IMG/VR virus record: IMGVR_UViG_3300037068_000029
Span: 1-32,634 of that record
Direction: 5' to 3' (one strand)
DNA length: 32,634 nucleotides
Source: a virus
Shown: one piece after another, positions 2,325 to 13,464 of the stretch
How the letters are laid out: each line of letters opens with the position of its first letter
Position numbering within the stretch: the first letter of the stretch is position 1
Notes under the pieces: model-generated
Database searches by the model: none
Seen by the model: only the letters and a program-made list of their open reading frames with translations
Told to the model about the DNA's origin: nothing
Made by a program: the position numbers and the translations under genes

Positions 2325-4283
2325 TCAGAAGAGCAGAAGTGTGTCTTCTGCGCTTGAGGCCAACCTTCTATTCTCTGCCTGACGAGCCATAGAAGGCGTA
2401 CGGGCAGAAGCAGTTTTGCCTAGTACTGGAATTGCACTAGACGTGCGAGCCACACGGCCCTGAGGGATCTGAGTCGAGAAAACTTCCTTCACGCGACCAA
2501 GCACCTTGATGGTGTGCGCGGCCACGATCTTCGGCATTCTCTCGATCTCGGCAATGGCCTGGTATCGCGACTCATAAGGCACCAGACCAAGCTCTGTGTA
2601 GAGATCAGCCAACTGGTAAACCTGGGATGCTGAAACCTTCTCCAACACCATCGCCTGCTTCGTCGCGCTCATTCTTGGTGCCGATCCCTGGCCATCAGGA
2701 ATAACACTTGAGGTCTCACTTGAGTTGCCGCCACCCTGAGGCTGGTTGTCAGCATTCTCGTCCCAGGCTGTCTCGCGATACTGAGGCAGAACAGCATCAG
2801 GATCAATCATGTTGGCTACAGGAGCCTCAACATTCGCATCCTGATCTGCCTGAGCCACCTGACTGTTGCTCGTGCCCATGTCGTCGGCCTTCTTCTGGAC
2901 CGAAGACATGATCTGCTCACGATCACCGAAGTCACCAGTCGGGGCTTCCTGATCGAGGTTCTGAACAGTGGTGGAGAAATCAGGTGCGGCCGTCTCTTCG
3001 TCGCCGCCACACGCTGGAGCCTCAGCGGCCGGCGGCTCACTAGCGATGTTCTCTCCAGTGTCCACACCCTCTTCGTTCATCGGGTACTCCCCGAGCGCCC
3101 GAAGCCTTGCCTGAGCCTCAGCCAGCCTCCGCTGACCAAGAGCCTGGCCAACGTTAGCTTGGACGGCTGTTCCTCTACTCACATTGCCCTCCTTTCTAGG
3201 TTGGCCGTTGTACAAGTCGTAAGGGTTTGGTTCGTCGCCATCTTCGTCTTCATCCGACTCGTCTTCGTCGTCGTCATCATCCGAGTCGTCTTCGTCACCA
3301 AAATAATCGAGATCCCCGCTTTCGTCGTCCGCATCGTCATCATCGCGAACGCCGCCGGCCTTTTCTGTATCCGGATCCTGAAGCTCTTCTGGTGGTGTGA
3401 TGTAACCGCAGTTATCGCACTCAATTCCGTTGAATGGAGAACCACACTGAGGACACACATCGTCATCCCGAAGCGTGTCCACTTTTGGTGGGGCGATCAT
3501 TTCTCCATAAGCCAGATAAGTGCTAGAGGCTGTTCTAGCCATCGGCTGAGTGTTCAAGATGATCGTCGAAACAGCACCACTGGCAGCATTCGTAGTTGCC
3601 GTGGTGTTAATCCACCCACCGTATTGATTAGAAGCCATCTTGACTCCTTCCGGCACAAGGAGATCCTGCATCACTGCGGTCTCGTCGGCAGGGTCGAAGA
3701 CGAATGAGATTTCAAAGAAGTTCAGACCACGGCAGATCTCAAAGACCAAAATCCTCTTGGGCTGGTTATTGACCAGCTTGGTCAACTCCTGACCCTTGTT
3801 GTTGAGGATGTGGTCACAGAACTGTTCGGCCGTGGTGGCTACATTTCCACAGTAAGAACAAGTCGAGTTATCAACGTCGCACCCCATGGACACCGAGTCC
3901 ATGTCACCGTTGATGATGTCTCTGGCCAGGTTCGGGAAGGTTTGAGCGTCAACCTCAGGGAGGATGGTGATGTGTGGATCTTCGCTCAGTCCGTGGTACT
4001 GACTGGCCAGGATCACGCCACGAGTGCGCTCTGGATCCTGGTTGTTGTGGTTGACGAAGACCGGTCGACCCTGGAAGGTATGAGCAGCCTTCTGTAGCTC
4101 CACGGACGGGAAGCCATCGAAGTTCTTGTTGATTCTCGCCGAGATAGCTCGCACTCGCGGGTAGATGTACCCAGGACGCGGCTTGAAGGTGAAGCTACCG
4201 AACTTGGAGAGGTCCCGTTGGGCGACGATCAGTTCTGGCCTGTGAATTTTCAGGTCCACAGACGCATACTTGCGAATCGCCAC
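2325..4283 (-). CDS. Capsid maturation protease fused to acidic/scaffold-like region
   Basis: The first ~215 residues resemble the prohead protease of large actinophages: a conserved His in a VNHNN segment, then INGDMDSVSMGCDVD with the likely catalytic Ser, then a Cys/His cluster (CSYCG...CDHI) that accompanies it in this family. After that come a zinc ribbon (CPQCG...CDNCG), a long Asp/Glu-rich stretch, a Pro/Gln-rich linker and a helical C-terminal ~110 residues that may act as scaffold. The last residues, ASSAEDTLLLF, nearly match the end of the 1050-residue neighbour. I prefer the GTG at 4283, which has GAGAGGAG five bases upstream, over the ATG at 4304 that precedes that ribosome site. 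Product length is 652 residues. Confidence 0.8.
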   Translation of the reverse strand: MAIRKYASVDLKIHRPELIVAQRDLSKFGSFTFKPRPGYIYPRVRAISARINKNFDGFPSVELQKAAHTFQGRPVFVNHNNQDPERTRGVILASQYHGLSEDPHITILPEVDAQTFPNLARDIINGDMDSVSMGCDVDNSTCSYCGNVATTAEQFCDHILNNKGQELTKLVNNQPKRILVFEICRGLNFFEISFVFDPADETAVMQDLLVPEGVKMASNQYGGWINTTATTNAASGAVSTIILNTQPMARTASSTYLAYGEMIAPPKVDTLRDDDVCPQCGSPFNGIECDNCGYITPPEELQDPDTEKAGGVRDDDDADDESGDLDYFGDEDDSDDDDDEDESDEDEDGDEPNPYDLYNGQPRKEGNVSRGTAVQANVGQALGQRRLAEAQARLRALGEYPMNEEGVDTGENIASEPPAAEAPACGGDEETAAPDFSTTVQNLDQEAPTGDFGDREQIMSSVQKKADDMGTSNSQVAQADQDANVEAPVANMIDPDAVLPQYRETAWDENADNQPQGGGNSSETSSVIPDGQGSAPRMSATKQAMVLEKVSASQVYQLADLYTELGLVPYESRYQAIAEIERMPKIVAAHTIKVLGRVKEVFSTQIPQGRVARTSSAIPVLGKTASARTPSMARQAENRRLASSAEDTLLLF

Positions 4284-4402
4284 CGACGCTCCTCTCCACC
4301 ACATTTGAACGAGTGAAGAAGACCTGACCTGGCCATGTCAGAAAAACAGGGTCACGAGCTAAAATTTGTCCTGACCAAGCCACCAACCCGAAGGGCTCCT
4401 AC

Positions 4403-4984
4403 GTGGCCAACCGAGCACCGCAAGCACATGGCCGTCAAGCCTACGTAACCGGACGATGCAAGTGTGAAGAGATCTGCCGTAAGGCAGTAAGAGACTACAG
4501 CAGAGCTTATGACAGGAAGAAGGGCGTAAAGCCCCAAACAAGTAAGCCGTGGACTGAAGAAGAGCTTCATCTGCTAAAGACCAGTGAGCTACAAAACTCT
4601 GAACTCGTTCACCTATTACCAGGAAGAACCCTAAAAGCCGTCACTCACAAGCGTACCTTGATAGGTGCTGGCATTCTCCAGCGAGGTCTGAGAGTGGCCC
4701 GTCCAGGTAACCGTGGTAGGGCTGCTTGGAACAGAGGGTTAAAGACCCCGCTACCCGAGATAGTCAGGGGTAGCAGGGTCAAGAACAGCAAGACCGGGAA
4801 GGTCTACCGGATCTGTGGAGTCCATATGGACTCAGATCCGCCGTACGTGTGGCTAGACCGCGTTGACACGATGTTCGGTCGACTCCTGAAGACGACCATC
4901 GAGCGCCTCAACGAGAAGTACGAGGGAGTTCAGAACAAGAATGCCAGTGTGTCTTCTGGCGACTCTGAGGCGTTAGCCATGTAG
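4403..4984 (+). CDS. DNA-binding protein resembling homing-endonuclease accessory domains
   Basis: This is the only plus-strand gene inside the structural block. The 193-residue product has a Cys motif (Cys19, 21, 25, in RCKCEEICRKA) like the small zinc modules of actinobacterial HNH-type proteins. It is followed by a Myb/SANT-like helix segment (PWTEEELHLLKTSELQNSEL, residues ~49-90) and a basic AWNRG stretch (108-112) reminiscent of NUMOD-type modules of homing endonucleases. The C-terminal part (125-170) is a small beta-rich domain with no nuclease motif that I can see. The start is GTG at 4403, with AAGGG seven bases upstream. Its 3' end runs 55 bases antisense into the C-terminus of the neighbour. 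It may be a mobile gene or a regulator. Confidence 0.7.
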   Translation: MANRAPQAHGRQAYVTGRCKCEEICRKAVRDYSRAYDRKKGVKPQTSKPWTEEELHLLKTSELQNSELVHLLPGRTLKAVTHKRTLIGAGILQRGLRVARPGNRGRAAWNRGLKTPLPEIVRGSRVKNSKTGKVYRICGVHMDSDPPYVWLDRVDTMFGRLLKTTIERLNEKYEGVQNKNASVSSGDSEALAM

Positions 4985-7900
4985 TGAGTTCCCTCAAGAT
5001 TCAGATTCGTCTTGTTTCGAGCACCAGGACCACTCTCGCCCTCAGACACGAGTCTGTGCTGATCAGTCGGCGAATAATCTTTCCCAGCTAGGTAGCTCAG
5101 TCCGTACTTCTCACGAAGCTCTGCGGCTGATTCCTTCTCGATGTGATCATCGTCAGACTCGTCACCGGGGTTATCGGTGCCTTCGTCATCATCGGAGTCA
5201 TCGCGCTTGTGAGGTTCGTCGTGCCCACCGTCGTCATCGTCCGAATCGGGCTCATCGCCTTCGTCATCTGAACCATCGTCGGCATCGTTCTCATCTTCGG
5301 CGATTTCTTCGTCTAGGGCTTCGTCGTCATCTGGATCGTCTTCTTCCTCGATGCCGTCGTCGTCTTCCTCAGGTCCCTCATCGTCATCGCCACTGAGCGC
5401 CGCACTGCTGGATTGGATCCCAGTGCTTCCTCTTTCTTGATCTGAGGGAACTGCGTAGTTCGGATCGCCGTCTTCGCTATAAGGATTGTCGCCAGTGTTC
5501 TCGTACGGATCAAACGTTCCGCCGCCACTGTCATCAACCAGGTTTACATCTCCACTGTCAGAGAGCTTTACGTGGGCTGTAACTACTCTAGCAACAGCCC
5601 TTTGAGCCTGACCAGAATGACCAAACCACCCGAGACTCAAGTAGTCCTCAGATGTGCCATCAGACCACACATAGGCATTCCAGCCATTTGCAGTCTTGGC
5701 GATAGTCGCAGTAGGCAGAGTAAGGTCATTGGTTACCCAGTCGAATCCACCGCTCTGAGTACGACTCCAGGAAGTCTTGTTGCCAACACTGGCGAATCTT
5801 CCTGGCTGCCCCTTGGTCTTGCGGGCCTTGGCGTCCAGAGACCTCATCTCGGAGAACAGCGCGTAGGCGTGCGAGCACATACGGCCCACGAAACTACGCT
5901 TCCGCAACCATGCCCAGTGTCCCCAGTCGCAGTCACAAGACCAGCCTGAGACCTGAGTAGAGGTCAACTGCCGGCCCACTCCAGGAGCCACTGACCCGAG
6001 ACGCTGAACCGTGGTGTAGTACCGACCATGATCACCCTGGATGTACGCGGTGATGACATCGGGCCGGAACGCCTCAACGTCAATCGCGCCTTCGGAACGA
6101 AGCCTCTTGGACTTCTGCACCACATCTTTCCAAGCAGCCAGAGCCACCAGACGATCAGATGCGATGGTTTGGAGGTACTCACGCCATGGGGCTGGAGTGT
6201 TCGGTTCAAGCTCGAAAGCGCCCTGGGTCTGCATCTGTCCAGGAGGGCCACCAGGCATGCCCACGGCCATCATCTGCTGCTGCATTTGGTTAAGCAGAGC
6301 CAAGTCGGCCTGAGACCCAGTCCAGTGCCACCAGCCGTTGTTGTCCACGGCCCAGAACTGCATTAGCTGCTCGATCTGGGACTCGATCTGCGTTGGCTGT
6401 GCGTTCGGGTCAGCGGCAGGAGCAGCATGCTTAGCCATCTCGGCCGCACCAGGAACGTTGGCATACAGAGCCTTCTGGTGCTCGCGGGCCTCTGCCTCAG
6501 TGGAGTAACCCTTAGCTTCCTTAGACTCGCCCTTGGCGTTCACCACGTGGTAGCGGCCATTACGCTTTTCGATCTTGTATGGAGCGTGGACTCCACCTTC
6601 GCCAGCACTACTGTGCCGTGAATGATTTCGAGCGATGATGGCCTCTACTGCTGAATGAGCATCCTCGTACGTGTCGTAATGACCATAGTGCTCGCCCTTG
6701 GGGAGCTTTCCATTGCCTGAAGCGATCAGGTAGTAGTGACCATCTCCACCACCAATGTACTTGTCATACCCATCGGAGTAATGCTGCGTAGAAGCATAGT
6801 GATTGTAGCTTCCTGCCGCGTTGGCATCATCCTGATCGTGGTCGACCAGATCCAGAGGCTCTTGTCCGAATAGCTGACCCTGAAGGTAACGCTCGTGAAG
6901 ACCAGGAAGGTCACGAGGCTGCGCCTCTACTCCGTTAGGCGTGCCAGAAGCGGGAGCGGTGTCGAAGTCAGCGTACTTGATGGGGTGCTCAACCTTAAGG
7001 TTCTTGGTCCCCTTCTTCTTCTTTTTGAGAACCTCATCCACACCGTGAGTCTTAGTGTATCCAGCCTCAGTTGGAGTCTTTGGGTTGCTCTCTCCGTGCT
7101 GACCCTTAAGGGGGCTAGAGCCCATAGGCTTGTTTCTCTTGCGACGATCCTTGAGCTTTCCCTCAGCTACAAGCTCGCGGTGCTCCACCTTGGAGTGAAG
7201 TGGAAGAGACTCAGCGCAGCTACACATGTTGGCCAGAAAGTGAAGATCAGCAGTCGTGGAAAGCGCAAGATTAAGAGCAGCAGTGTGGCTCCCACCGCCG
7301 TCTCCACCGTCGCCATCACCATCAGAATCCCCATCACCAGAGCTATCGCTGTCAGAATCCGAATCGTCCGAGTCGTCATCGTCGTCGTCGGAGTCGTCGT
7401 CATCATCGTCTCTAGGGAATCCCGATCCGTAGCCTGATCCATACTCGTGCTGGTGTTCCTTCTTCTTTTTCTTGTCATCGTCCTCATCGGCCGCATACCG
7501 GAGGAAGGACAGATCATCCTCAATGACAAGTCTGTCGTGAGAAGACTCGCGCTCAAAATGAGGCAGGCTACCGTCAAACAGATCGTCAGTATCAACGTGG
7601 TCTGGGTTGATGGGTGAGTTGTCCAGCCCAACTGGAGAATCATCAGGGATTGTGGAAACATCCAGCATCGGCATATCGCTTGACTGGGCGAAGTGCACCC
7701 TACGAGCGCGAGTGTTGGAAAGGTGAGAGTGAGGCTCGAACAGTCCCTCGATATCGGCCTCTACTGGATCTTCGCTCGTGTCGTCGCCAGTCAGCGAGTC
7801 AGAAGCGGTACCCATCTCCAGGTGAGGGTCTGTACCTGGTTGGATGGTGGACGTGGTGCCGTCCCAGCCTGGCCCCTGAGGCTTCGATGGGTATGGAAGA

Positions 7901-8856: not shown

Positions 8857-9399
8857 TTACTCCAGGCCCCTTCTCCTACGAGCTTCAATCAGGTTGTTGT
8901 ATAGGTTATCGCCGCCCATGGCGATAGCGTCTTCTGAAGCCTTCATGTGATTGAGGTTAGATATAGCATCCGGAGAAGTTGAGTTGACGAACATCTGCTG
9001 CCAACGATCAGGCTGTAGATGTGTTCTTATCTTGCTAGGATCTTTCTCTAACTCTCTTTGAACCTTCATCGCCTGGGGAAGAGTGTCGAACTCAGCAGAA
9101 TGGCTAACGCCTTCCGGGCTATGCAAAGACATAAAATATGGCTTCTGACCTTGCATGTTTTTGTTTACGACAAGTGGCACGGGTGGCATTGCATGAATCG
9201 CGAAAGTCATCCCTCTGTCGGTAGTCTTGTGCAACAGATCTGGCTCATCCCAAAAATGGTGCCAACCGTCATCAAAGGCTTTCTGCAAGTGTTCCTGGTT
9301 GTAGAGATCTGGGTAATCAGATCTAGATAGAAAACCTCTTAGACTCTGCCCAGATGTCTTCCAGATGGTGTCGTCGGCTCTTGAAATCCTCGATATCAT
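8857..9399 (-). CDS. Unknown protein encoded directly after the portal gene
   Basis: This 180-residue product starts at an ATGA overlap with the portal stop codon, so it is almost certainly translated by coupling to the portal. It contains aromatic-rich segments (AFDDGWHHFWDEPDLLH) and a basic C-terminus (NNLIEARRRRGLE). No signal peptide, membrane segment or catalytic motif is visible. The position suggests a small head or portal-associated protein. I do not recognise the family. Confidence 0.7.
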   Translation of the reverse strand: MISRISRADDTIWKTSGQSLRGFLSRSDYPDLYNQEHLQKAFDDGWHHFWDEPDLLHKTTDRGMTFAIHAMPPVPLVVNKNMQGQKPYFMSLHSPEGVSHSAEFDTLPQAMKVQRELEKDPSKIRTHLQPDRWQQMFVNSTSPDAISNLNHMKASEDAIAMGGDNLYNNLIEARRRRGLE

Positions 9400-11807
9400 T
9401 CTTCACCGACTTCAACACCAGGTGGCAGGTCTACCTTCAACACTTCAGCCCACTTGCGGTTAACGATCGCATCCATAATCGACTCTTCAGTCAGAAGAGA
9501 AGACATACCAACGTGTCTTGGACCAGCAGCCATCCTGGCCTCGCGTAGCTGCTTACCGAATCTCCGGTCACCAAGACGCCTGTGTAGCAACCTAGGCTCG
9601 CCTACTGGGTTGCCATCTTCGTCCTTGTCTTGGTACTCGATATAGCGATCATCTGCCGCGCCAGACTTCTTCGGCATGTTCTTCCGTGCCTGGTCTGAAA
9701 TCTCAGGGCGCTGAGAGATCCAGTTCTTCGGCAGGAAGGTTGAGCCAGGCTCCGTGGCCATCGTCGGCTCCGTGGCGTCAGTTGGCTCTGTGCCAGGGAT
9801 CGACGGAGGCTGGATCAAGTTTGGCGTGAGGTTCGGTGTAGCTGGAGGTGACGTTATGTCGGAAACCGGCATGGACTGCATCAGAGGCATAGCCGCTCCA
9901 GCACCGGCAGGAGCGCCACCAGGAGGGATCGCCCCACCCATCGTTGGATCCTCGGCAGCAGCCTCAGCCATGTCTTCCTGACCCGTTGAGCCAGGCGGAA
10001 GGATCCCTGGAGGAGCAGCGGCCGATCCAGGACCAACCTGAGGCGCCACCATCGGAGGAGCCATCATCGCCTGAAGCTCCGGTGGGATCGGGAGCCCCTG
10101 CATGGTCAGAAGGTCGTAGAGCTTCTGGTTGAAGCGAGCCTCGGCCAGAGCCTTCTTCAGCTTCTCTTCCTCAACCTGGTCAAGCTCTTCCTGCCAGTCG
10201 AACGGAATGTTGACCATGAGCGCGCGGTCCGAGATCGGGACACCAGACATCTTGAGAGTCTGGAGGAACTGCCGCTCCACGTTCTCATCGCGCAAGTTGA
10301 TGGTAGCGAACTTGAGATCAGGGATCAGAAGCTTTGGACGCTTCCTGATGTACTCTTCGCCATCCTCATCAACCTCAAGCACTTCCTCCATTATCGGAAT
10401 CCGAACGTTCCCAGCGGATTCGTAGTCGAAGTGACCTTGAGCCTCTGCGACGATCAGAGCCCTTTCCCGATAATGCTTCTTTACCCACTTCTGCCAAGAT
10501 GACATCAACTGGGTTACGAACTCCTGGTTCAATGCGGAAGAAGCGTATGGTGCACCCGTTCCGCCAGAAACCAAAGCCTCGCCAATTCCCCATGCCTGAA
10601 GCAGCTTCCGCTCGATACGGTCATAGTCCTCACCCAGTCTAGGCATCGCCTCGCGCCCGAAGACGTTCTCGATGTCCAGGCCGAAGTGGTGGACCAGAAG
10701 CCGGAAGTCGGCTGCCAGAGCCAAGTTGAGGTCATTTCGCAGTGAGTCGCGCTCGGCCGCGTCCGGGATCCACGGTGTGCCCGAACCGTCGATGTCCTCC
10801 ACACCGAGCTTGGCCAGGATCAGAGGAGCATAGAGTCGGTCAGCCACAGCATCCTGAGCAGCGTTGAGGGACTGCTCCATCATCAACTGCTCAAAGGTGC
10901 GAAGCATGTGAGGAGTACCGTAGATATCCCACGGACTCATTTTGTTGACAACACGCTTCAGTAGAACATTAGAAACATCCAGTCCTTCGTCCTTCTGGAT
11001 TGCTCTAATGATCTCTGGGTATTCTTCCTTGAGAAGGTTATATTCCCAAAGGGTGTTCTGATCGTTCTGGAGGTCTTTGAGGTACTGTGGGACCTTGAGC
11101 TTGTACCTCCAGTCTCGCTCAAAAGGCGAGTATCTGACTGCAAGATCATCGGGGTTGATGATTTCTTCGGCGTCCCACACACCAAGAGACTCGTTGAAAT
11201 TCGCAAGACCATTGACCTCTCCAACAGTCCAGAACTCACGACCAAAGTCAATGAGGAAAGTCTCGTAGTCGAGCATCTCAAAGAACTGCTGCTCGTAGAA
11301 CTTCACCAAATCAGGGTCTTTGCAGGAGAACTCCATGCCTTGGATCGGGAAGCGACAGTAGGCGTCAACGCACAGAGACACAAGGTAGTGAGTCGCGTAG
11401 AAAGCGCGAGTCCACTGACGGATCGTCAGACGCTCTTTCTCTTCTCCAGTCTGCCACGGGATACCCTTGGCAATCATCGAACCGAGAGGCTCGCGAGACT
11501 TAGGAAGAGCTAGAAGCATGTCGCCAGAAGCTTGCTTTCTAAGCCCAACATTCGGCGATCCCATCTGCCCGGCCAGAGCAGCATTCTTCTGTCGAGTCTC
11601 AGCTATGTAGGCTGAAAGGTTACGATCATTGACAGTTGAATTGAGGTCTGAAACAGATTGAGCCGCACGCCTTGCATCTCTAGGAAGAGCCATTCCGCGA
11701 GCGCGAAGAGTTGATAGTTCCGCGTTCACATTGGACGTAACAAGACGAGAAGGGGCCACTATCGGACCCCTTCCCGACCTTCTGTCCTTAACCTCATAGC
11801 GAGCCAA
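9396..11807 (-). CDS. Portal protein
   Basis: The 803-residue product is the likely dodecameric portal through which DNA enters the head. The central part is typical of portals of large actinophages: ERLTIRQWTRAFYATHYLVS, a helix-rich wing, then WGIGEALVSGGTGAPYASSA followed by a long helix and a region that ends in the FDWQEELDQVEEEKLKKAL stem-like helix. A Met/Pro/Gly-rich low-complexity linker (~residues 575-690) precedes a conserved-looking basic C-terminal domain of ~100 residues. The start is TTG at 11807 with AGAGGA about ten bases upstream. Length is at the long end for portals because of the added tail. Confidence 0.85.
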   Translation of the reverse strand: MARYEVKDRRSGRGPIVAPSRLVTSNVNAELSTLRARGMALPRDARRAAQSVSDLNSTVNDRNLSAYIAETRQKNAALAGQMGSPNVGLRKQASGDMLLALPKSREPLGSMIAKGIPWQTGEEKERLTIRQWTRAFYATHYLVSLCVDAYCRFPIQGMEFSCKDPDLVKFYEQQFFEMLDYETFLIDFGREFWTVGEVNGLANFNESLGVWDAEEIINPDDLAVRYSPFERDWRYKLKVPQYLKDLQNDQNTLWEYNLLKEEYPEIIRAIQKDEGLDVSNVLLKRVVNKMSPWDIYGTPHMLRTFEQLMMEQSLNAAQDAVADRLYAPLILAKLGVEDIDGSGTPWIPDAAERDSLRNDLNLALAADFRLLVHHFGLDIENVFGREAMPRLGEDYDRIERKLLQAWGIGEALVSGGTGAPYASSALNQEFVTQLMSSWQKWVKKHYRERALIVAEAQGHFDYESAGNVRIPIMEEVLEVDEDGEEYIRKRPKLLIPDLKFATINLRDENVERQFLQTLKMSGVPISDRALMVNIPFDWQEELDQVEEEKLKKALAEARFNQKLYDLLTMQGLPIPPELQAMMAPPMVAPQVGPGSAAAPPGILPPGSTGQEDMAEAAAEDPTMGGAIPPGGAPAGAGAAMPLMQSMPVSDITSPPATPNLTPNLIQPPSIPGTEPTDATEPTMATEPGSTFLPKNWISQRPEISDQARKNMPKKSGAADDRYIEYQDKDEDGNPVGEPRLLHRRLGDRRFGKQLREARMAAGPRHVGMSSLLTEESIMDAIVNRKWAEVLKVDLPPGVEVGEE

Positions 11808-11853: not shown

Positions 11854-13464
11854 TTATCTTCTCCTAGAGCCAGTCGGCTGGATGCTACTCGACTCGCCCT
11901 GGTCTCCACGACTCTGACCTGCGTTGTCGCGCCGATCGGTCTGGCTCGCAAACTCAGTGCTGGCTGGCTGGCTCGAATCGAATGGACCAGCGTCATCACG
12001 AATCTCGTTGGCTGGCATCATTGGTCCGGCACCATCGTGATTGTCACTACCATCGTTGCCACCAGTTGACTCATCCTTGCCCGTGGGCTCGAACAAGCCA
12101 TCGATGTTGGCGTCGTCGTGGTAATCCACGCCCTGCTTGTGGAAGGCGATGTAACCCTCCAGGAACTCCCGACCTGTCTTCTCCCTTGGAGGAAGAGGCT
12201 GGTTCTTGGCCGCTGCGTAGTAACCGCGAACGAACTCAGCTTCTCCAGTCACGCGAGGGTCAGCAACCTTGAGAGCCTCGTTGGCCTCCTTGGCGAGCAT
12301 GCCGGCCACGTAGTTCCACTGCTTATGCACAGCCCAGAAGCGGTCCATAGCAGTTCTGAGTGTGGCTACCTTGGCCATCTTCGTGCTCGCCGTCGCGGCC
12401 AGCGCCGGGTTGATCGAGAGCATCTGCACGTCCTTGAGTGCCATCACAGCACCCTCCAGGGCGTCCTGGATCTGGTCGATCGGAGAGTCCTCAGTGACAC
12501 CACCGGCTACGTCACCATCGTTGTCACGGTCACCAGGAACCGCTGGAGCAGCCGGCGCCATCGGAGCGCCCATCGCACCAGAGTTGTCACCTGGCATCGT
12601 TCCGAAGTTCGGCTGAGCCATGCCTGGTGGTGGTTCCTGAGGCATCGGTGCGTCGGCAACCTTAGTGCTGGACTTTTTATCCATGTCGCCGTCGAAGTCG
12701 TTCTTGCTGCCTTCGCCCTTATCGTCCGAATCGTTGTCGTTATCAGCATCAGCGATCTTGACGTTCCCGGCCGCAGCCATCTTGAACTGATCGCCGCGCA
12801 TCTTGATCTCGCGGGCCATCAGCACGTAGGTGGAAGCGCTTGTTTTTCCAGAACTCATCTGGCGCACCGGCCAAGAGTTCCAGGTCCGGTCGCAGCCGGC
12901 GCAGTGAGTGAACCCTAGATGATCCTGTTCGGTGCCACATCCGGGGCACGCAAACTTCTGCATCGGGTCCTTGCTCGTCCAGAGCTTGGTCCCCTGGTCA
13001 TAGGCCCATGCTGTCTTCGTCACAGCGGCCATGGCTTGGAGATCAGCTACAAGAGCGTTCCCCATCTTCTCAGCGAACGCAGTGCGCTCAGCCGGATCCT
13101 TGATCCACGACTGTTCTGCAACAACTTCTGCTGCTGTTTTTACAGAGGAAGGGCGGTCCTTCTTGACCGGTGCTTGCGCGGGCACTGGCGGGCGTAGAGC
13201 CGCCCCAACCCTCCGAATGACACCAGGTGTAGGAGTCGTTACTTCCGCGATCACCTTGATGACCTGAGGCTTGACCTCAGACCAGCGCTCGTTGAAGTCA
13301 TCCTTCGACTGAGAGTTGGCCAGGTACGATCCGAACCTCTCCTTGGCCCTGAAGATCGCGCGGTCGATCGCCCGCTCTAGCTCAAATCCGTTGTTAGCCT
13401 CTGCCTCCGCTGAAAGCTTACCAGCGTTGGCCATCGCCTCGAAAACACCAAGGTCGCTGCCCAC
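11854..13464 (-). CDS. Unknown head-region protein with zinc ribbon, upstream of portal
   Basis: The 536-residue product begins at GTG 13464, which has GAAGGAG five bases upstream; a TTG at 13506 in the same frame has no good ribosome site. The N-terminal ~100 residues are helical. A zinc ribbon (CPGCGTEQDHLGFTHCAGC) lies in the first half, followed by an Asp- and Pro-rich linker, a helical section, and a segment (EFVRGYYAAAKNQPLPPREK) near the C-terminus. The end is Asp/Gly-rich with a basic RRR terminus. It is the first gene of the structural run and lies just after a hairpin. It may be a portal-associated or internal head protein; the family is not recognised. Confidence 0.75.
   Translation of the reverse strand: MGSDLGVFEAMANAGKLSAEAEANNGFELERAIDRAIFRAKERFGSYLANSQSKDDFNERWSEVKPQVIKVIAEVTTPTPGVIRRVGAALRPPVPAQAPVKKDRPSSVKTAAEVVAEQSWIKDPAERTAFAEKMGNALVADLQAMAAVTKTAWAYDQGTKLWTSKDPMQKFACPGCGTEQDHLGFTHCAGCDRTWNSWPVRQMSSGKTSASTYVLMAREIKMRGDQFKMAAAGNVKIADADNDNDSDDKGEGSKNDFDGDMDKKSSTKVADAPMPQEPPPGMAQPNFGTMPGDNSGAMGAPMAPAAPAVPGDRDNDGDVAGGVTEDSPIDQIQDALEGAVMALKDVQMLSINPALAATASTKMAKVATLRTAMDRFWAVHKQWNYVAGMLAKEANEALKVADPRVTGEAEFVRGYYAAAKNQPLPPREKTGREFLEGYIAFHKQGVDYHDDANIDGLFEPTGKDESTGGNDGSDNHDGAGPMMPANEIRDDAGPFDSSQPASTEFASQTDRRDNAGQSRGDQGESSSIQPTGSRRR

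Follow-up and report, generated by a model that had tools for sequence, protein, structure and literature searches.

A conserved C-terminal tail on the prohead protease homologue, the phrog_3021 proteins and, in one clade, a SWIM-like protein of actinobacterial phages

At the level of sequence, a conserved C-terminal tail is common to the prohead protease homologue of a group of actinobacterial phages, to the phrog_3021 proteins and, within a single clade, to a SWIM-like protein. We met it in the window—the whole 32,634-nucleotide stretch analysed here, IMG/VR record IMGVR_UViG_3300037068_000029—for which a preliminary description had reported nearly the same C-terminal peptide on two large proteins of the head region. 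This likeness is real: the protease/scaffold protein P0001 (2325-4304, minus strand, 659 aa) ends in RRLASSAEDTLLLF and the SWIM-type zinc protein P0002 (4930-8082, minus strand, 1050 aa) in ANASESPEDTLAFLF or, over a longer stretch, GTHYMANASESPEDTLAFLF. Both proteins are also long and acidic, as described, and the range then considered, 2325-4984, spans the protease gene and the plus-strand ORF 4403-4984 but reaches only the last 18 SWIM codons.

The two tails, SSAEDTLLLF in the protease (2328..2357, minus strand) and ESPEDTLAFLF in the SWIM protein (4933..4965, minus strand), rank as a pair in the top 0.12% of 7,565 within-genome gene-tail pairs; the corresponding pairs in the related genomes L014 and L016 fall in the top 0.30% and the top 0.17%, respectively. 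When all predicted genes of the window were checked, the tail was found on none besides these two. Part of the near-identity is private to the window genome, since the EDTLLLF of its protease is nearer to the SWIM tail than are the protease ends of relatives (EDTLLFVH/FFH).

Gene context and architecture of the two proteins

On the minus strand of the window, the portal gene (9396-11807) is followed by two small genes, the SWIM gene, the protease/scaffold gene, a gene for a 218-aa protein and that for the major capsid protein. The order portal, SWIM, protease, ~170-180-aa protein and capsid protein is the same in Rhodococcus, Gordonia and Mycobacterium phages. The major capsid protein, P0008 (601..1599, minus strand), is phage G gp27-like with an HK97 fold; the related entry, 6wkk, is phage G gp27. 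A genome scan for further relatives of this capsid protein yielded L103 as its single useful contig, besides two short matches that were spurious. The name structural protein is given to several head genes in the record of phage E3 but to neither the SWIM nor the protease homologue, which counts against the docking reading set out below. As a separate observation, three proteins encoded downstream of the capsid gene at 12900, 13748 and 14704 of L013, outside the window, have a common C-terminal motif like YVWxRTA, which is also found in L014; this second shared-tail group probably consists of paralogues.

P0001 matches phrog_18299, a head maturation protease family, over residues 73-211 (E 3e-24) and shares 27-53% identity with proteins annotated as prohead or head maturation proteases and with homologues of these, which makes it, by sequence, a prohead protease homologue. 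Its protease domain (residues ~40-211; 3672..4187, minus strand) is modelled by AlphaFold2 with pLDDT ~60-87 over much of the stretch, and from knowledge of the fold we assume that the candidate catalytic residues are the His in VFVNHN and the Ser in SVSMG. Foldseek matches to the model were weak, the top one being the HCMV protease (prob 0.63, E 0.1), with T4 gp21 lower (prob 0.35). The model was built on 34 homologues and reached a mean pLDDT of only 53, so we used just the succession of ordered and disordered parts: the protease domain, a long disordered acidic linker, helices at residues 555-612 (2469..2642, minus strand; pLDDT ~71-90) that are likely the scaffold part, disorder up to residue 650, and a terminal helix (652-658) that contains the tail. 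The tail is thus predicted to come after ~35 disordered residues; this segment (residues 613-649; 2358..2468, minus strand; pLDDT < 50) bears RTS, KTAS and RLAS motifs.

In each of the 11 isolate genomes that we inspected, a homologue of P0002 comes before the protease gene. A CxC...CxH motif (C716, C718, C736 and H738; 5860..5943, minus strand) is invariant in 24 homologues, but no match to a curated SWIM domain model was obtained in Pfam or NCBIfam at E 0.1, and we therefore call the protein SWIM-like only. Near its end lies a conserved C-terminal module of the family (residues 999-1034; 4981..5088, minus strand) with invariant alignment columns, which closes with LDLxGTHY, or with a GTFY variant in L050 and L052.

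Conservation and distribution of the tail

The preliminary description had read the DNA shared by the two gene ends as a mark of common ancestry or strong selection. A 13-mer, CAGAAGACACACT, is indeed present twice in the window, only at these two ends on the minus strand (reading AGTGTGTCTTCTG at 2338-2350 in the protease tail and at 4946-4958 in the SWIM tail). Yet 13 bp of identity carry little weight: direct repeats of this length form 33 pairs in the window, and close relatives do not preserve the DNA match. In L014 and L016, the SWIM tails are GAGTCACCCGAGGATGTCCTG and GAGTCAGCCGAAGACGTTCTG and the protease tails AGCGCAGAAGACACTCTTCTG: the DNA of the two tails differs while the peptide is retained. 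Across the window-clade lineages, the last 11 SWIM codons show a pS of 0.64-1.0 and a pN of 0.08-0.16; in other words, ES[PA]ED[TV]L[AS]FLF is kept in three lineages with near-saturated synonymous changes and few amino-acid changes. These codon comparisons indicate that the SWIM peptide is under purifying selection and is not a recent copy. Selection on the peptide accordingly stands from the earlier proposal, and the 13-mer as evidence of DNA ancestry does not.

Between the SWIM and protease genes lies the plus-strand ORF 4403-4984, which encodes 193 aa and matches phrog_8936 weakly (E 8e-5). Its 3′ end overlaps the SWIM tail by 55 bases in antisense; other genes occupy this place in L014 and L016. 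Insertion of this ORF was considered as the origin of the tail and rejected, as both relatives keep the tail with those other genes beside it.

Among relatives, the ends of the two proteins part ways. The protease tail is conserved in 65 distinct homologues from Mycobacterium cluster C, Gordonia, Rhodococcus and uncultured phages, with a consensus of about R[VT]AANDPxNDSxLF[IG]; after the anchoring Asp, [LMI] and then mostly F or W stand at fixed places. The long SWIM tail, in turn, is found only in L013 (the same virus as the window), L014=L015 and L016. SWIM proteins outside this clade stop 0-9 residues past GT[HF]Y and have no tail, and the similarity of their ends to the protease tail is at chance level (percentiles 0.13-0.97). 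We had considered these ends as degenerate copies and dropped the idea, given that their likeness to their own protease does not exceed chance. A signal on the SWIM protein across the phage group, as first suggested, is therefore not borne out.

Some further observations concern the same two families. In Gordonia phage Skog, genes 157 and 158 (L007 10847-16795), the SWIM and protease homologues, are both recorded as 'LysM-like endolysin'; for the protease, 51% identical to the window protease domain, this label looks wrong. In L016, the gene after SWIM (6050-6679) starts like the window protein P0005 (8857-9399, minus strand), which suggests that small genes are shuffled around SWIM.

We built a profile from protease tails, window clade excluded, and ranked with it the protein families of 11 genomes plus partial loci, restricted to the 83 families with at least four different tails. 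After the protease itself, phrog_3021 came first (median percentile 0.005; next family 0.13), and the same profile placed the three window-clade SWIM tails at 0.006-0.011. This family, annotated as of function not known, occurs in Tonenili and other cluster C1 phages, Pupper, Skog, E3, Finch, Stormageddon and others, and the tail ends all ~20 members examined. Reciprocally, a profile of nine phrog_3021 tails, with the register set by hand from the alignment, gave 24 proteases a median percentile of 0.0012, window-clade SWIM proteins 0.008 and other SWIM proteins 0.34. The tails are short, which limits statistical power.

We then removed the last 28 residues from the phrog_3021 HMM. This tail-blind model recovered ten further records (Myrna, Phabba, ScoobyDoobyDoo, Phrappuccino and six uncultured phages), two of which (Myrna and the L076 virus) had already been met in the family ranking; the tail was present in ten of ten, at a percentile of ~0.003 or better. 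A scan with a smaller alignment had yielded one new member. At least two families thus share the tail group-wide, and the group-wide partner of the protease is phrog_3021. For the window's clade itself, two fragments of 47.8 and 47.4 kb contain no phrog_3021 gene. In L176 (17467-19634, minus strand), the phrog_3021 gene is apparently interrupted, giving two overlapping ORFs of which only the second bears the tail. The SWIM proteins of L063 (2596-6402) and L087 (3124-6504) match the tail-blind HMM with E 4e-10 and 2e-6, by which the SWIM and phrog_3021 families seem to share a domain. Another apparent bearer, a DUF7178 protein of L043 (RQASFRDDTVDDWLLWT), was set aside as a chance match because its tail is not kept in homologues.

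Candidate cleavage motif and readings of the tail

The motif [RK]xA[AGST] occurs 6-26 residues from the end in 54 of 65 proteases (83%) and in all ten tail-blind phrog_3021 records, against 136 of 2074 other gene tails; ahead of the SWIM C-terminus it was found in none of 47 proteins. The narrower form [RK]TA[AGS] is enriched about tenfold in both the protease and the SWIM family; the sampled capsid proteins have none, and many of the proteins with at least two copies lie in the head gene block. These counts point to [RK]TA[AGS] as a candidate cleavage motif. A T4-type [ILV]xE motif was discarded: its 225 occurrences in the protease are no enrichment over the 214.6 expected, and in SWIM it is only mildly raised.

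A conserved, selected and linker-borne tail in at least two families fits a docking or targeting peptide. The reading we favour, to which we would give an even chance, is that both ends are copies of a single functional module, namely a docking peptide at the C-terminus that is carried by a flexible linker and binds a common site inside the forming head, with a likely protease site before the tail in the protease and phrog_3021. The tail would be an acidic-hydrophobic peptide that follows roughly the pattern P-x-[DE]-D-x-L-x-F and terminates a flexible segment, and its binding site would most likely be the capsid protein lattice or the scaffold core on it. Binding would place the protease/scaffold, the phrog_3021 protein and, in the window clade, the SWIM protein inside the prohead. 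At maturation, the prohead protease would probably cut the tail off, at [RK]xA|[AST] in the protease and phrog_3021; the SWIM tail has no basic residue of this motif. Binding partner, prohead location and cleavage are what we infer by analogy with known systems, along with a gain of the SWIM tail by either duplication or convergence. The tails of phrog_3021 and protease showed no lineage-specific matching (p 0.36 with the window pair, 0.90 without), so that coevolution does not support a common receptor; together with the missing RxA motif in SWIM, this limits the claim of docking and cleavage. A search for interaction, proteomic or structural data on the tail returned none.

The tail might instead be bound by the protease itself, as a substrate or propeptide that holds the enzyme inactive or recruits its substrates, and not dock on the shell. 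Both the presence of [RK]-x-A-[AST] before the tail in most proteases and every tail-blind phrog_3021 record and the enrichment of [RK]TA[AGS] in the protease and SWIM families would suit such a role, and the prohead protease of SPN3US auto-cleaves off a 64-residue C-terminal propeptide (PMC10052503). What makes us regard this as unlikely is that conservation is centred on the very end of the protein, several residues past the candidate cut, and that the window-clade SWIM protein has the tail without the basic cleavage motif. A generic acidic-hydrophobic C-terminus, arisen by chance or through composition, draws some credit from the shortness of the tails and from the ~0.5-1% of other gene tails that match the score of the SWIM tail; but with the pair in the top 0.1-0.3% in all three genomes, phrog_3021 first among the families and the full tail-blind recovery, we consider it improbable.

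Hydrophobic C-terminal residues can also serve as degrons, and the tail could mark scaffold proteins for clearance by a host protease. However, it does not end in Ala-Ala as SsrA-type tags do, and it is also carried by a second, non-protease family, which leaves this reading highly improbable. Hardly credible, finally, is a SWIM tail copied recently from the protease gene by DNA duplication or gene conversion and functionless in itself. The two genes are neighbours and the 13-bp identity exists in the window genome only, as such an event would have it, but exact 13-mers are frequently repeated in the window, L014 and L016 do not keep the match, and the SWIM tail persists in three lineages despite synonymous divergence; this evidence has already largely refuted the idea, and we reject DNA duplication as the origin on the 13-mer counts and the two relatives.

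Known systems and significance

C-terminal docking peptides and targeting sequences are already known in principle. Among open-licence papers, we found none on these proteins, on this particular tail, on its occurrence in both the protease and phrog_3021, or on its gain by SWIM in one clade. The capsid targeting sequence of T4 is N-terminal and is delivered to the scaffolding core, whereas the tail described here is C-terminal and also sits on the protease itself. Both are short conserved peptides on otherwise diverse head proteins, with protease processing that is putative for our tail; the T4 sequence is used by internal proteins (PMC3012670; Mullaney and Black 1996, as cited in PMC10052503).

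A parallel is seen in the herpesvirus protease-scaffolds, whose C-terminus binds the capsid protein and is released by their own protease at the M site (PMC12474303). As in UL26/UL26.5, an N-terminal maturation protease is fused to a scaffold, the C-terminal peptide lies just behind a candidate protease site, and the same tail recurs on a second protein; the protease domain may also bear a weak structural resemblance to the HCMV protease. In herpesviruses, however, a single gene gives rise to both tailed proteins as nested products (PMC12474303), as opposed to separate genes here, and the tail sequence is unrelated to that of our group, whose capsid binding is putative. Encapsulin cargo offers a second parallel: a ~10-residue C-terminal peptide docks in a pocket of an HK97-fold shell (PMC7355545). 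Here, too, a short C-terminal peptide on different proteins would dock inside such a shell, but the shell is that of a phage head and the bearers include the protease/scaffold; the sequence is different and loading is putative. T4-like and giant-phage prohead proteases (T4 gp21, SPN3US gp245, PaBG and JA11) have a homologous protease domain in those phages that were matched by sequence and, in SPN3US, an auto-processed C-terminus (PMC10052503). In the three outgroup proteases that we looked at, the scaffold fusion is missing and the stand-alone gene encodes a short protein of ~255-280 aa; SPN3US cuts after AxE as against the candidate [RK]xA of the window group.

Should the tail indeed dock proteins in the head, foreign protein could be loaded into the heads of the well-studied cluster C mycobacteriophages by means of a short, addressable tag; the unstudied family phrog_3021 would gain a head role, and the herpesvirus protease-scaffold and its tail that binds the capsid would have a counterpart in a bacterial virus. 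A doubtful extension, which we offer only tentatively, is that this actinobacterial phage group has a general C-terminal loading peptide, releasable by the protease: tailed proteins would be docked beside the protease/scaffold and freed at maturation, and new ones such as SWIM recruited by acquiring the tail. If true, a general loading tail would amount to an encapsulin-like cargo system in a tailed phage. The docking tail is a testable prediction for phages that are already in laboratories.
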